Origin: Procambarus clarkii
Lineage: Eukaryota; Arthropoda; Malacostraca; Decapoda; Cambaridae
Assembly: GCF_040958095.1 (NCBI RefSeq)
Contig: NC_091188.1
Span: 3,139,181-3,203,180 of the forward strand
Direction: 5' to 3'
Length of the DNA stretch: 64,000 nucleotides
Below are positions 8,601 to 14,600 of the stretch, piece by piece (the first letter of the stretch is position 1; every line of letters begins with the position of its first letter). The notes under the pieces were generated by a model. It saw nothing but the letters and a program-made list of their open reading frames with translations, had not been told where the DNA came from and searched no databases. Position numbers and translations under genes: made by a program.

Positions 8601-11600
8601 CCTCTCACAATGTTCTTTGTGTTCCTCTGACGACAACTTACTATCCAAAACCACCCCTAGGTCTCCTTCATTATGAGAGTTCTGTAATTCCTTTCCACAT
8701 AATTTATAAGTTGTGTGTGGTGTATTTTCTCTTGATTCCACATTCCATAATATGGCATTTATTCACATTGATTTCCATTTACCACTTGACGCTCCAAGCA
8801 CTTATTTTATCTAGATCAATTTGAAGGGCATTACAATCGTCTGCGTCTCCTATCTTTCTCAGTATCTTAGCATCATCTGCAAACATGTTTATATAATTCT
8901 GTATTTCTACTGGTATATCATTTATGTAGACAATGAACATTACTGGTGCAAGAACTGAACCCCTGTGGTGACTCCTGAAGATTCAAAGAAGTTTTACATA
9001 TGGATTTTACTCCTTTATATATATTATTTTCTCAATTGCAGAAACAGAATGTGTTTTGTGTTGATCCATTTCTTCTGACTCCATAAAGAGTCTTGTGTAC
9101 TTTGCACTGCACATATGCCTATTGATCACCACTGTTATCAGTAGCCCTGTGAACATTATAGTAACAAGAGCTATTGCTGGGAACACCCAATAGTGATTTA
9201 ATTCACTCTCCTTACAAAGATATGATAGTTTATATTTTCTTTCTTTATCAAAACACAAAGATGAATCTATAAACAATTCATAAGCCTTCTCTCTTTCTCC
9301 AGTGAAACTGTGTGTAACACTGTCATTAATTTCTGTCATCTTTCTTATGTAACTCAGAAAGCTGCAGTTGCAATTTGTAGATTTAAATACATTATTTTGA
9401 ATTATCAACTTTTTGTTGAATACTGTGGAATAGAATATGAGACTGCCTGGCTCATGTTTGTGGAATATATTATCAGAAAAAACCATTGAACCTTCTTGAG
9501 ATGTAGAATGTAATGAAGTTAATCCAAAGCTTTCTATATGGAAGAATTCATTGTTTATAATCTGTATAAAAGTTGCATTGCTTACTACAAGACTCTCAAG
9601 TGCTACATTCTTTATAGTATTTGCTTGGAGTGTAAAGTTGTGTGTGTCAGTATCTAGCGAGAGGAAGCTAAGGTAGCCAACATAATTATGATGGATGATG
9701 GTCTTCTCTGATTCCTGGATAATTGCACCAGTGGAGACGGTGCCAATATAATTATTTTCAAGAGCAAAGGTATGAACCTGGAATAGAAAAAGTAAATAAG
9801 CATTGTTTAAATGAAACTTGAATTCCCAACAATCTAAAAAAAATCATGTTGACAAGTTTTACACCCAATATCGTTAATCAGAATTGCATAGTGTAGAGGG
9901 TGTGAGACTTACATATCTTGGTGATAAGTTGATTTCTCCAAGCACTTCAATTTTACAATTCTTTATGGAAACAAGATCTAAAACATGGCCTTCTTGTATT
10001 TGGATGAGTATATTTAACTGACCCTTCCAGATGATGTCTTCTAGAGTAATGATCTTCAGGTTGTGGGCATGAATGTTGAGTGATCCTTCCGTGCCCTCAA
10101 AGGTGGAATGTGATAGTTGCAAGGTCCTGTAAAATAATTGATTTATCACTATGCCAAAGCTTCTTTGAATGCATTGCAATTCACCTAGATTATTTTTTTT
10201 TCAACAGAGTACAGTTATTTATTGCAATTGTCATAGTTTATTATGCATATTATTCTCTACATATTTTCTTAGCAAACACTGTTTTTGAGGATTATCAGAA
10301 TTCAATTTATATGCCATAACTGTCCTTGATCATATATTAGGGGTTTATATTTTTTTAGCTGCCCATTCAGATGACATATTTTAATCTGTTTATGAATTGT
10401 CATAGTCTCGATAGCTGTTTGGTGGGTGCTTGTTGGCCTAGGTTATGTCCTAATAGTTTTTAAAATAAAATATTATTATTATGTACTATCATCTTCAGAT
10501 TTGGAAAAGTCAAAGTTTCCTAGGAAGATAATATTCAGTACTGTACAGAGTTTTCTAGATTTACTAGGCAGTTCTCAATTTTTTAGCTCCTTGTGATTTT
10601 TTTTCCTGTTACACCAAGTGTATTAACACTTTCGCCCGGGCATGACGCAGCATTACATCATCCGTTTACTGGCGGTAATACCGGGGATGACGCAGCATTG
10701 CGTCATCCACTTTAAATAATCGCCAAAAATCAGGTTTTTATCCGATTTTTTGGGGACTGGTTTTAAAATGCGCGCCGATGTCTTCCCATTTTCTTTGTTG
10801 AGCCTCGTGGCCCTCAGGCAGCTTGGCACACGCCGTGGGCCCATTGTTTTCGCTCCACTGTTGTGACCAATGTTGCCTCCCCTCGCATCTCAAACGTGTG
10901 AACATTTCGGCTATTTTCCGTGGCTATATTTCTTACTGCGGCTTTAGAAACTATCTACGCTTACTCCACAATGGATAGTGATCATGAACAAGGCCCTTCC
11001 AGGAAGAAAATTGCGAAAGAAAGGCTTGAAAAGGGCGGGAATTGGGAGTGTAGCTGGAAGGCATCTGAGCACTCACTTGCGGCTAACGCGTGGCCCGTCT
11101 TCAACTCGTCGGCGGTTGGAGCGTGACCATGTTTTTTATTTTATATGCTAATGTTCCTATAGAGAATTCTGTTGCGAACCCATTGAGACCAAAATGAAAG
11201 ACCTAGGACGAAAATTGAGGTGACCAGAGTGAAAATAGTGAAAACATTTTATCGCGTTTGCGCGCTCCTGGGAAACTCGTTCGCACTTTCTCTGTTTGCT
11301 GCGGGTAATTAGCCGGGCTTTTGGAGTTTATATGCATTTAGTGCTGTAGAGAATTCTATTGCGAACACAATGATACCAAATTTAATCTCGTAGGACGAGA
11401 ATTAAGGTGACAAAGTTGAAGAGAGTATACACTTTTCAGAATTTACGCGCGCTCCCGTGACACCCTGGGTCCCATATCGCACAGTTGAGGGGTGGCGGGC
11501 GGGGTGCGCGAAAGTGTTAATTATGAGTTGTTTTTTTTATCCTTGATGTCTGAATCACAGAGGCATTAGAAGAAAGCAAACCAAAATGCAGATATTTTAT

Positions 11601-14600
11601 ACAAAGACCTTGTTAAAGAACTTGATAAATATGACCATGGAGTAATAGCCAATAAAATGAAAGCTAAAGGAATAACTGGTGACATATGAGAAAAAATCTT
11701 AAATTCTGTAAAAAGCAAATTGCAAAGAAGCCGTAAATTAAACAAAAATTCAGCCTGAATACAATGTGAAGCTCAGTTCCACATAGTATGGCCGTTACAT
11801 TGCTACTTTTCCTCATAGAATACATTGGTAGGAATATAGCTCTGTTTTGTGTTGTTCTTCACTGACCACACCAAAATAAGTACTGTATAAAAATTGCCAT
11901 GGTGGAAGGCAGAAAAATTAGTCAGATATCAACAAGGTTTTACAGTAACTGGTGGCGTAGTGGTAACATACTTGACCCATACCTCACCTGAAATTTGATC
12001 TGGGTTCAAGTCCTGGCTAGGGAGGATTGACTGGGTGCTAATTCTCAACTGTTTGCCCCTGTTCACCCAGCAGTAATTGGGTATCTGGTTATTAACCAGT
12101 TGGTGAATCGTATTCCAAGGAAACCTAGCAAGGTAAGGCTTACCGTGAGCTATCGGAAGGGAAAGCTCTCTGTCCAATCTAACGTCTAATGAGTCAGAAG
12201 TCATCTATTCCTGCACCCACCTAAATATAATATGACAGTCAGATTTCGTAGAAAGGAATGACCAAGTCTGAGATATTGGAATAATATCAGAAGACCTATG
12301 TCTAGAGAACATTCAAAATCAAACTAGCAACAGCCAGTAAAATGATAATTTTGCTGGCTGGATAATGAGAACATTTAACTACACCAGTACAACTATCAAA
12401 ATTGTCTACAGGTATAATTAGGTAAAATCTGTTTGATACATCTCACAGGCTATTACTATAGGTATTAGTACTTAATTAAAACTTAATCATTAACTGAATA
12501 ACAAGTAATTACTGAGTTAATTTACTAATATCACATTGCACTACATGAATGACACTCACTATATAATAACAGTTTTGCATAAGTAATTTTACACCTACTC
12601 TAAAGGGGTATTGTATTGTAAGAAGAAATCATAAGCCAAATGAATATGATCTATCTTGTGGAGCTGTAGTGTGTGGATATGCTTCAAGGAAGTTAAGGTT
12701 GTTCCACTGAGATGTACTGCTGAACATCCAACAATCCTCCAGCATGTGACATTATCAGGAATGTTGATGTGACTTTTTCCATAACTGATCTTCTTATCCT
12801 GTATAATCAGTGTCTGGAAAAAATATATTTGTTATTTTACTAAACTGTTAAGTAAAATAATTGTAAGTTATTATAAATGACACGTGATGCACATACAGTA
12901 CAGTAGTTTAAACAAAATCTGTGATTTTTTTCGCCCAGGTCACTAGCGTTCACTATGAAGTTTGCAAGCTAGAACTGCACATTTTCTGTACAGTTATCTT
13001 CAGCAGGAGGGACTGCATATTTTTGTAGGATATTTGCAAGTGCTTTAAATTGTTGAAGTGACATTGTTAAGATTGCCAGCCTATTGCCAAAATGTGTTTT
13101 TGTATGGGATTGTCAGCTAGGCAGTGAATTCAAACACTGGTGAAAAACACCATTTTAATGGCTAATATCACAGCTATTTATAACAGTTTAGTTTTAAATT
13201 ATGATTAATCTCAGGTATATTAATACCCATTTATTTAAGATATTTGTAGTCTAGCAAAATACAAAGAAAGCTTAATACAGTATATGAAGGTTTTATCACA
13301 ATTGCATCTCACTGTTTTCAATGGAGAATTATGTTAAATAAATGCAAATATATTTAAAAAATGTTCAAAACCACTGTGCTATATTTCCATAAAGATGTAG
13401 CAAGTCATACTATAGACAAATTGTATGCATACAATATTTACTTACATCATTAACTGATGGGCATAAACAGTTGAATTTTAAGTCATTTGCATTAGCATCT
13501 TCCGTACAAAATTGCACAGCTTTCTCATCATCACTAAAAACCGTCCTTAATGCAACACATAAAATTATTAGAAAGTATGTGGATGTCCACATACCCACAG
13601 ATGGCCACATTTCAAACAATTGCTTGTTTATTAAAACAAAGGGAAATATAGGTGATATGAGTTGATAATCAGATATAGTCTTTCAGAATGGTGCCACTTT
13701 CCTGTTAAAATGAGAGTTAATGCTTTAATTTATATAATGCACTTTAGAATTATAATGTCTGTTTGTCTTGAGAACTACAAAGACTACCTGCAAGCTCAGT
13801 TTACAGTGATAACTTTGCTGTTTTGTGTGTATGTTCATGTGATCTTTCTAGCTGATTAGATAACTGATAAGGATATAGATAAGTAAACTGCACATTTGTG
13901 TTTAATATAAACCTTAGGCATATCTATGCTAAATAAATAAGGATACTATAATTAGCAGAGTAAAGTGATTAACAAATTTAGATGGATTCATTAATTAAAC
14001 TGAATATATGTAGATGGAAAAAAAATCATAGATTTAATAGTTTGTCAATATCTTTGAATGCCACCTTGCCAATGAGGGTGAGAATGACAGAATAACCTTC
14101 ACCAAGTATTATCTTAGAGCTTGTTCTACTTCCCTGTTGGGATATAACATGTAAATCTTCATTTGTCCAGCCCAACCACATGGGCTGGATGGTAGAGCGA
14201 TGGTCTCGATTCATGCAAGTTGGCGCTCTATCTAGTCAAGCACAAGGTGCTACATAGCCATCCCGGCTTGGTGCCTTCTATTGACAATTACTTACTAGTC
14301 AAACACAAGGTGAAATTGGAGAAGTTTCAAAGATATACCAACAGACTAGTCCCAGAACTATGAGGTATGACTTATGGGGATAGGGCTACATGAATTAAAC
14401 CTCATATCAGCAGAAGACAAGAATTAAGGGAGAAATGATTACCGCACACAAAATTCTCAAGGGAATTGATAGTACTGTATAGATAAAGACAGACTATTTA
14501 GCATGAGTGGTTTTTGCACGAGTGGACACAGGTGGGAAATGAGTACCTAAATAAGCTACAGACCCATTAGAAAGAATCTTTTTAGTGCCATGGTAGTTAA

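Follow-up and report, generated by a model that had tools for sequence, protein, structure and literature searches.

Gene structure and host intron

We analysed a 64,000-nucleotide stretch of the Procambarus clarkii genome (NCBI RefSeq assembly GCF_040958095.1, contig NC_091188.1, positions 3,139,181 to 3,203,180 of the forward strand), hereafter called the window, and found in it a predicted minus-strand gene (the window gene) of four exons joined by GT-AG junctions with phases 0, 2 and 0, whose product (the window protein) is 454 residues long. The exons of this gene, and those of the ABCC5-like gene that flank it on the opposite strand, are the following.

13446..13610, minus strand: exon 1, with the ATG, a signal-peptide-like segment (about residues 1-26) and a Cys-containing N-cap (residues 27-55); donor GTAAGT, phase 0
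12599..12813, minus strand: exon 2, with the first repeats (residues 56-126), in which LxxLxL segments (IHTLQL and LETLQL, for example) occur; acceptor TTTTTTCCAG, donor GTAGGT, phase 2
9913..10126, minus strand: exon 3, with repeats (residues 127-198); acceptor TTTTACAG, donor GTAAGT, phase 0
9007..9777, minus strand: exon 4, with the last repeats and the Asn ladder, a CxC C-cap (C334, C336, C373, C386), a membrane segment (about 393-417), a short tail and a TAA stop
6058..6270, plus strand: ABCC5-like exon upstream of the intron, with an open frame from 6058 and donor GTGAGT at 6271, matching ABCC5 residues 827-890 in the PDB (E 1.9e-14)
16483..16632, plus strand: ABCC5-like exon downstream of the intron, with acceptor TTTTGCAG, matching ABCC5 residues 890-939 in the PDB (E about 9e-7); its 3' end is the point where the ABCC5 match ends

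Every exon, junction (13446/12813, 12599/10126 and 9913/9777) and phase of the original prediction, in which four exons were said to close exactly, was recovered, together with the stop codon at 9007-9009. The span proposed there, 9007..13619, was right at the stop end; at the other end the ATG lies at 13610, whereas 13619 is a TTG in the same frame, three codons before it, and counted from the ATG the product has 454 residues instead of the 457 announced. The stop-to-stop frame of exon 4 (278 amino acids) was longer than the longest open frame in all 300 simulations of the intron under a first-order Markov model (median 109, maximum 194). Hydropathy, by the Kyte-Doolittle scale only, gave a hydrophobic N-terminal segment and a single hydrophobic segment at about residues 393-417, followed by a tail of about 37 residues, in agreement with the signal peptide, single membrane segment and short tail that had been described. 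The product carries seven N-glycosylation sequons and had no Pfam match to Ig, FN3 or TIR domains (E <= 1). The sequence supports a gene that looks complete and whose product is likely to be a single-pass surface protein of type I, its ectodomain made of repeats and bearing an Asn ladder.

Because the flanking plus-strand exons align to adjacent residues of ABCC5, the window gene is placed antisense within a single 10.2-kb intron (6271-16482) of the ABCC5-like gene, which bears out the nesting in an ABC transporter intron proposed earlier. Nesting on the opposite strand is a common arrangement, found in 220 (74.3%) of the simple nested gene pairs in human and in 193 (77.8%) of those in mouse.

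A further element begins about 30 bases past the stop codon, on the same strand as the gene.

8020..8975, minus strand: 5'-truncated fragment resembling a long interspersed nuclear element (LINE)

Copies at 6739 and 15021 share 79% and 71% identity with this LINE-like fragment, and other parts of the window hold two shorter matches to it. RVT_1 was present in the LINE-like copy at 6607-6942 and was not found in frame 8472-8762 of the fragment itself. Between position 7900 and the stop codon, AATAAA occurs only at 8763 and 8447, both inside the fragment, and ATTAAA at 7975; since the only AATAAA sites nearby are in the fragment, the poly(A) signal of the window gene may come from it.

Paralogs on contig C71

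Relatives were sought in the 4.03-Gb assembly from which the window comes, and the counts given below for these searches are lower bounds. The full window protein retrieved, among the matches listed, its own locus as four exon matches and a single weak hit at another place (E 0.15). This hit looked like chance at first and turned out to fall within gene C, a member of a tandem pair on contig C71.

About 13243.6-13233.9 kb, minus strand: gene B, in tandem with gene C; incomplete model of a few exons, start codon not in the model
About 13231.0-13219.6 kb, minus strand: gene C, in tandem with gene B

In both genes an early exon that contains Cys ends in phase 0, as in the window gene; repeats come next, then a CxC motif, a membrane segment and a tail longer than that of the window gene, and the two tails have the motif W-x4-PE-xx-TYQE-x-E in common. 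Gene C aligned to the window ectodomain with a score of 108, which was reached by none of 1000 shuffles (mean 38, maximum 75), and to gene B with a score of 57 (shuffle maximum 54). When 209 residues of gene C were used as the query, the window gene was the only match outside gene C among the matches listed (E 0.0022), and gene B was not retrieved among them. One gene C exon found the window gene at E 1.3 and one other weak place at E 8.1, and another found itself only, among the matches listed; the last exon of gene B retrieved neither the window gene nor gene C, and weakly matched four other places (E 0.78 to 7.2). Identity to the window gene in alignment A1 was 24% for gene C and 22% for gene B. 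Gene C is a well-supported paralog of the window gene, and gene B appears to be linked to the window gene through gene C. In viral contigs, 113 pattern matches were obtained and no relative was confirmed among them.

Near 13228.2 kb the reading frame of gene C shifts at a place with no evident splice sites, pointing either to a sequencing error or to a decayed copy.

The window gene might itself have arisen long ago as a copy of the C71 genes, inserted into the ABCC5 intron, and now be decaying or silent, with LINE sequence bordering it on the 3' side. Consistent with this, it has no close relative in its own assembly beyond the distant genes B and C among the matches listed, its short tail lacks the motif of the paralogs, and the sole AATAAA sites nearby belong to the LINE-like fragment. 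However, the 454 codons are read without a stop or frameshift and all the splice sites are intact, although identity to gene C is only about 24%. An intact frame at this degree of divergence argues for long maintenance of the window gene, and we consider a decaying or silent copy highly improbable.

The short tail could also be an artefact of the gene model if a further exon downstream encoded a longer cytoplasmic tail, as in gene C, where a tail exon follows the membrane exon. But the tail and membrane exons of genes B and C had no convincing match in the 64-kb window (E up to 10), the W-x4-PE-xx-TYQE-x-E motif was not found there either, and the frame of exon 4 runs straight into its stop as a terminal exon would. 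We consider a missing tail exon improbable.

Repeat pattern and fold

The six Asn-containing turns at spacings of 22-27 residues that had been noticed in the window protein were all found, at residues 207, 229, 251, 274, 301 and 327 (spacings 22, 22, 23, 27 and 26), each with a large hydrophobic residue two positions on. They exceed the shuffled expectation, as chains of at least six occurred in 3 of 20,000 shuffles at a spacing of 22-27 and in 23 of 20,000 at a spacing of 21-28. An Asn ladder is a hallmark of leucine-rich repeats (LRRs) too, their signature being LxxLxLxxNxLxxLxxxxF. The step from the ladder to a right-handed, pectate-lyase-like beta-helix, which the original prediction had taken, was not supported, for the remaining repeat pattern fits the LRR spacing and differs from that of a beta-helix control of the same genome.

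The pattern was counted in 17 repeats registered on position 9 (set A2: seven from the window protein, seven from gene C and three from gene B). Large hydrophobic residues occupied position 4 in 17 of the 17 repeats, position 6 in 17, position 11 in 16, position 14 in 14 and position 19 in 16, that is, N-5, N-3, N+2, N+5 and N+10; in the window repeats alone (n=7) the counts were 7, 7, 6, 5 and 6. Position 1 held a large hydrophobic residue in just six of the 17, departing from the LRR signature. As the beta-helix control we used seven repeats of a gene on contig C1, which we take to be FBXO11-like. Here hydrophobic residues stood at positions 6, 11, 19 and 21 in all seven repeats and at positions 4 and 14 in none, Asn, Gly or Asp occupied N+4 (position 13) in six and N+5 (position 14) in seven, and Gly was found at position 18 (N+9). 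Judged against these seven control repeats, the beta-helix spacing (Asn, Gly or Asp at N+4 and N+5 and a hydrophobic residue at N+12) was not found in the repeats of the window gene and its paralogs.

Profile searches gave a similar picture. The 17-repeat profile had 53 matches in the PDB (E up to 10), 48 of them to LRR proteins, including biglycan (the best, 1.4e-5), decorin, chondroadherin, Slit2, LGR4 and TLR5, and five to beta-helix enzymes at E 4 or worse; PP1 regulatory subunit 7 and RanGAP, among others, are counted with the LRR proteins. A profile of six window repeats (A5), taken from the nine in an alignment (A4) that MAFFT had misaligned and that was set aside, had 11 matches, ten of them to LRR proteins (best Slit2, 0.0061) and one to a pectate lyase (0.45). 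The same procedure applied to the FBXO11-like repeats gave nine matches, namely seven beta-helix epimerases, two unrelated proteins and no LRR protein.

A hidden Markov model (HMM) of LRRs from the same genome scored 15.9 bits on the window ectodomain (maximum of 200 shuffles, 11.5) and 12.2 on the second half of gene C (maximum 7.1), and the FBXO11-like pieces fell below zero. With a beta-helix HMM the window ectodomain (1.9, shuffle maximum 2.8) and the second half of gene C (1.7) stayed at shuffle level. The two models are of unequal depth, the first being built on 67 overlapping segments from ten proteins of the genome and the second on six sequences, in a control set that also drew on three plasmid records; the beta-helix HMM contains the FBXO11-like pieces, and their high score with it is by construction. 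Cysteines stand on either side of the repeats in an arrangement suggestive of LRRNT and LRRCT caps. Among these putative caps, compared with four LRRNT-like and two LRRCT-like segments picked by eye, the LRRNT-like spacing was clearest in gene B, whose N-cap (C-x2-C-x-C-x8-C) resembles two LRRNT-like starts of the genome (C-x3-C-x-C-x8-C); the window protein and gene C deviate from it.

Several observations weigh against an LRR fold, and the Pfam matches suggest instead a true right-handed parallel beta-helix (PbH1-type) ectodomain, which would make the window protein a small type I surface protein loosely like Bark/Anakonda. Pfam Beta_helix (PF13229) matched residues 175-329 at 25.4 bits (E 1.2e-5), just below its cut-off of 25.9, and exon 4 alone at E 4.2e-4, and was the sole Pfam family below E 0.08 for the window protein. 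The second half of gene C scored above the cut-off (33.5 bits, E 3.9e-8) and also matched NosD (E 0.0089). The Pfam LRR, LRRNT and LRRCT models matched neither the window protein at E up to 1 nor, at E up to 5, its exons 2-4 or the seven paralog pieces. The Beta_helix match is not simple leakage from LRRs, because canonical LRR exons of the genome scored far lower: two of ten matched, at 14.7 and 11.8 bits. An animal precedent for a beta-helix surface protein also exists in Bark, according to the available text of PMC13042304.

The same side of the balance holds the weaknesses of the LRR evidence. Set A2 was picked and registered by hand, omits two window repeats (those at LKIITL and IIHHNY), one repeat of gene B and several of gene C, and four of its 17 22-mers differ by one or two residues in register between the profile and the position count; position 9 is Asn, Gly or Asp in only ten of the 17. 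All six PDB matches of a three-gene profile were LRR proteins, but the best E was 0.042, and gene C alone matched 14 chains, none better than E 0.21, of which only four were LRR proteins; the full window protein had no match among PDB sequences. With the LRR HMM, gene B (3.0, shuffle maximum 4.1) and the first half of gene C (0.7, maximum 6.8) did not rise above shuffles. The Asn chain of gene C is shorter (five, at least five being reached in 188 of 20,000 shuffles) and is missing from its first part, and the alignment of gene B to the window ectodomain was not significant (score 39, reached by 122 of 1000 shuffles). In the window protein the N-cap has an irregular pattern (C-x12-C-x-C), and the cysteines of the C-cap are spaced more widely (1, 36, 12) than in a real LRRCT of the genome (1, 21). 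Exon 4 alone, modelled by AlphaFold without an alignment, gave a pLDDT (predicted local distance difference test) of 33.

We first adopted the beta-helix from the Pfam match and gave it up in the light of the controls on repeat profiles, spacing and HMMs. The hydrophobic spacing is LRR-like, the repeat profiles retrieve mostly LRRs and the beta-helix HMM stays at shuffle level; Beta_helix did not match the first half of gene C or the gene B pieces; and PF13229 is unspecific in this genome, where 140 places were listed and, of the 16 loci read, five were in the FBXO11-like gene and 11 were simple tandem repeats. A beta-helix ectodomain is, on balance, doubtful, and a divergent LRR solenoid is the likelier fold, which we hold with reasonable confidence. 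Both the fold and the LRR nature of the caps are what we infer, in the case of the fold because no Pfam LRR model matches and because of the low AlphaFold score of exon 4. A Pfam LRR match was regarded as a detection threshold and not as a structural feature, and the window protein is LRR-like and a probable member of the extracellular LRR membrane proteins in which a curated Pfam LRR match is missing. The three genes might also form an unrecognised arthropod surface family with a solenoid intermediate between the two folds, having LRR-type caps and core spacing and turns that pass the beta-helix profile cut-off, a proposal to which we give little credence.

Scores of Beta_helix above the cut-off were seen on simple tandem repeats of contigs C3, C31, C33, C46, C50, C66, C73 and C208, and are a source of false annotation.

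Proposed architecture

Taken as a whole, the reading that we favour, and consider probable, is that the nested antisense gene encodes a single-pass surface protein of type I, which has a divergent extracellular LRR solenoid and acts in adhesion or as a co-receptor or decoy. The ectodomain, about residues 27-392, would consist of about ten divergent repeats of 22-27 residues (counted by eye) between LRRNT- and LRRCT-type cysteine caps. By analogy with extracellular-LRR proteins, the exposed face of the solenoid may bind a protein or glycan ligand. The architecture suggests an adhesion molecule, co-receptor or decoy instead of a signalling receptor, because the tail is short, no signalling domain is present and the W-x4-PE-xx-TYQE-x-E motif of the paralogs is missing.

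Other features of the window

Away from the nested gene, three further regions were noted.

32478-33374: a 19-base tandem repeat (GTGACACAGCTCTCCACAC) in about 48 copies, which produces long open frames in several frames that could mislead gene finders
60977-61237 and 61534-62061: two related tandem-repeat arrays with periods of about 30, 64 and 98 bases
39307-46540, plus strand: exons resembling, by eye, a gene with RCC1 repeats and a BTB domain, with a 507-amino-acid open frame at 40928-42451

Comparison with known proteins

The FBXO11-like control (PF13229) is similar to the window family in turn length, in the placing of the Asn and in the hydrophobic residues at N-3, N+2 and N+10; it differs in having Asn, Gly or Asp at N+4 and N+5, Gly at N+9 and a hydrophobic residue at N+12, whereas the window family has hydrophobic residues at N-5 and N+5 instead. 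The fold assignment is corrected: an Asn ladder with a spacing of 22-27 residues does not by itself separate beta-helices from LRRs, and Pfam Beta_helix can be the sole family matching a divergent LRR-like protein. A small family, one nested gene and a tandem pair, of a sort that Pfam LRR scans would miss, is added.

Bark beetle/Anakonda, a type I membrane protein of the Drosophila tricellular junction with beta-helix domains, is likewise an animal surface protein described, in the text available of PMC13042304 and PMC8006247, as bearing beta-helix repeats. The view that a beta-helix type I receptor would be unusual in animals was somewhat strong, since Bark/Anakonda is a type I membrane protein with such domains (PMC13042304, available text). 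The accessible portions of the open-access literature searched yielded no other family of animal beta-helix membrane proteins, which is no proof of absence.

The closer comparison is with the LRR_Only class of extracellular LRR single-pass proteins, exemplified by fly CG4781, of 469 amino acids, whose architecture is given in the available text of Dolan et al. 2007 (PMC2235866) as signal sequence (SS), LRRNT, 11LRR, LRRCT1 and transmembrane segment (TM). Compared by architecture and not by sequence, the window protein differs from the class as described there in that its repeats are too divergent for the Pfam LRR models and its N-cap cysteines are irregular. It resembles the class in size, signal peptide, cysteine caps (loosely, by their spacing), about ten repeats of 22-27 residues, one membrane segment and the lack of Pfam matches to Ig, FN3 or TIR. 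The window protein is probably an ordinary kind of animal surface protein and not an unusual beta-helix receptor.

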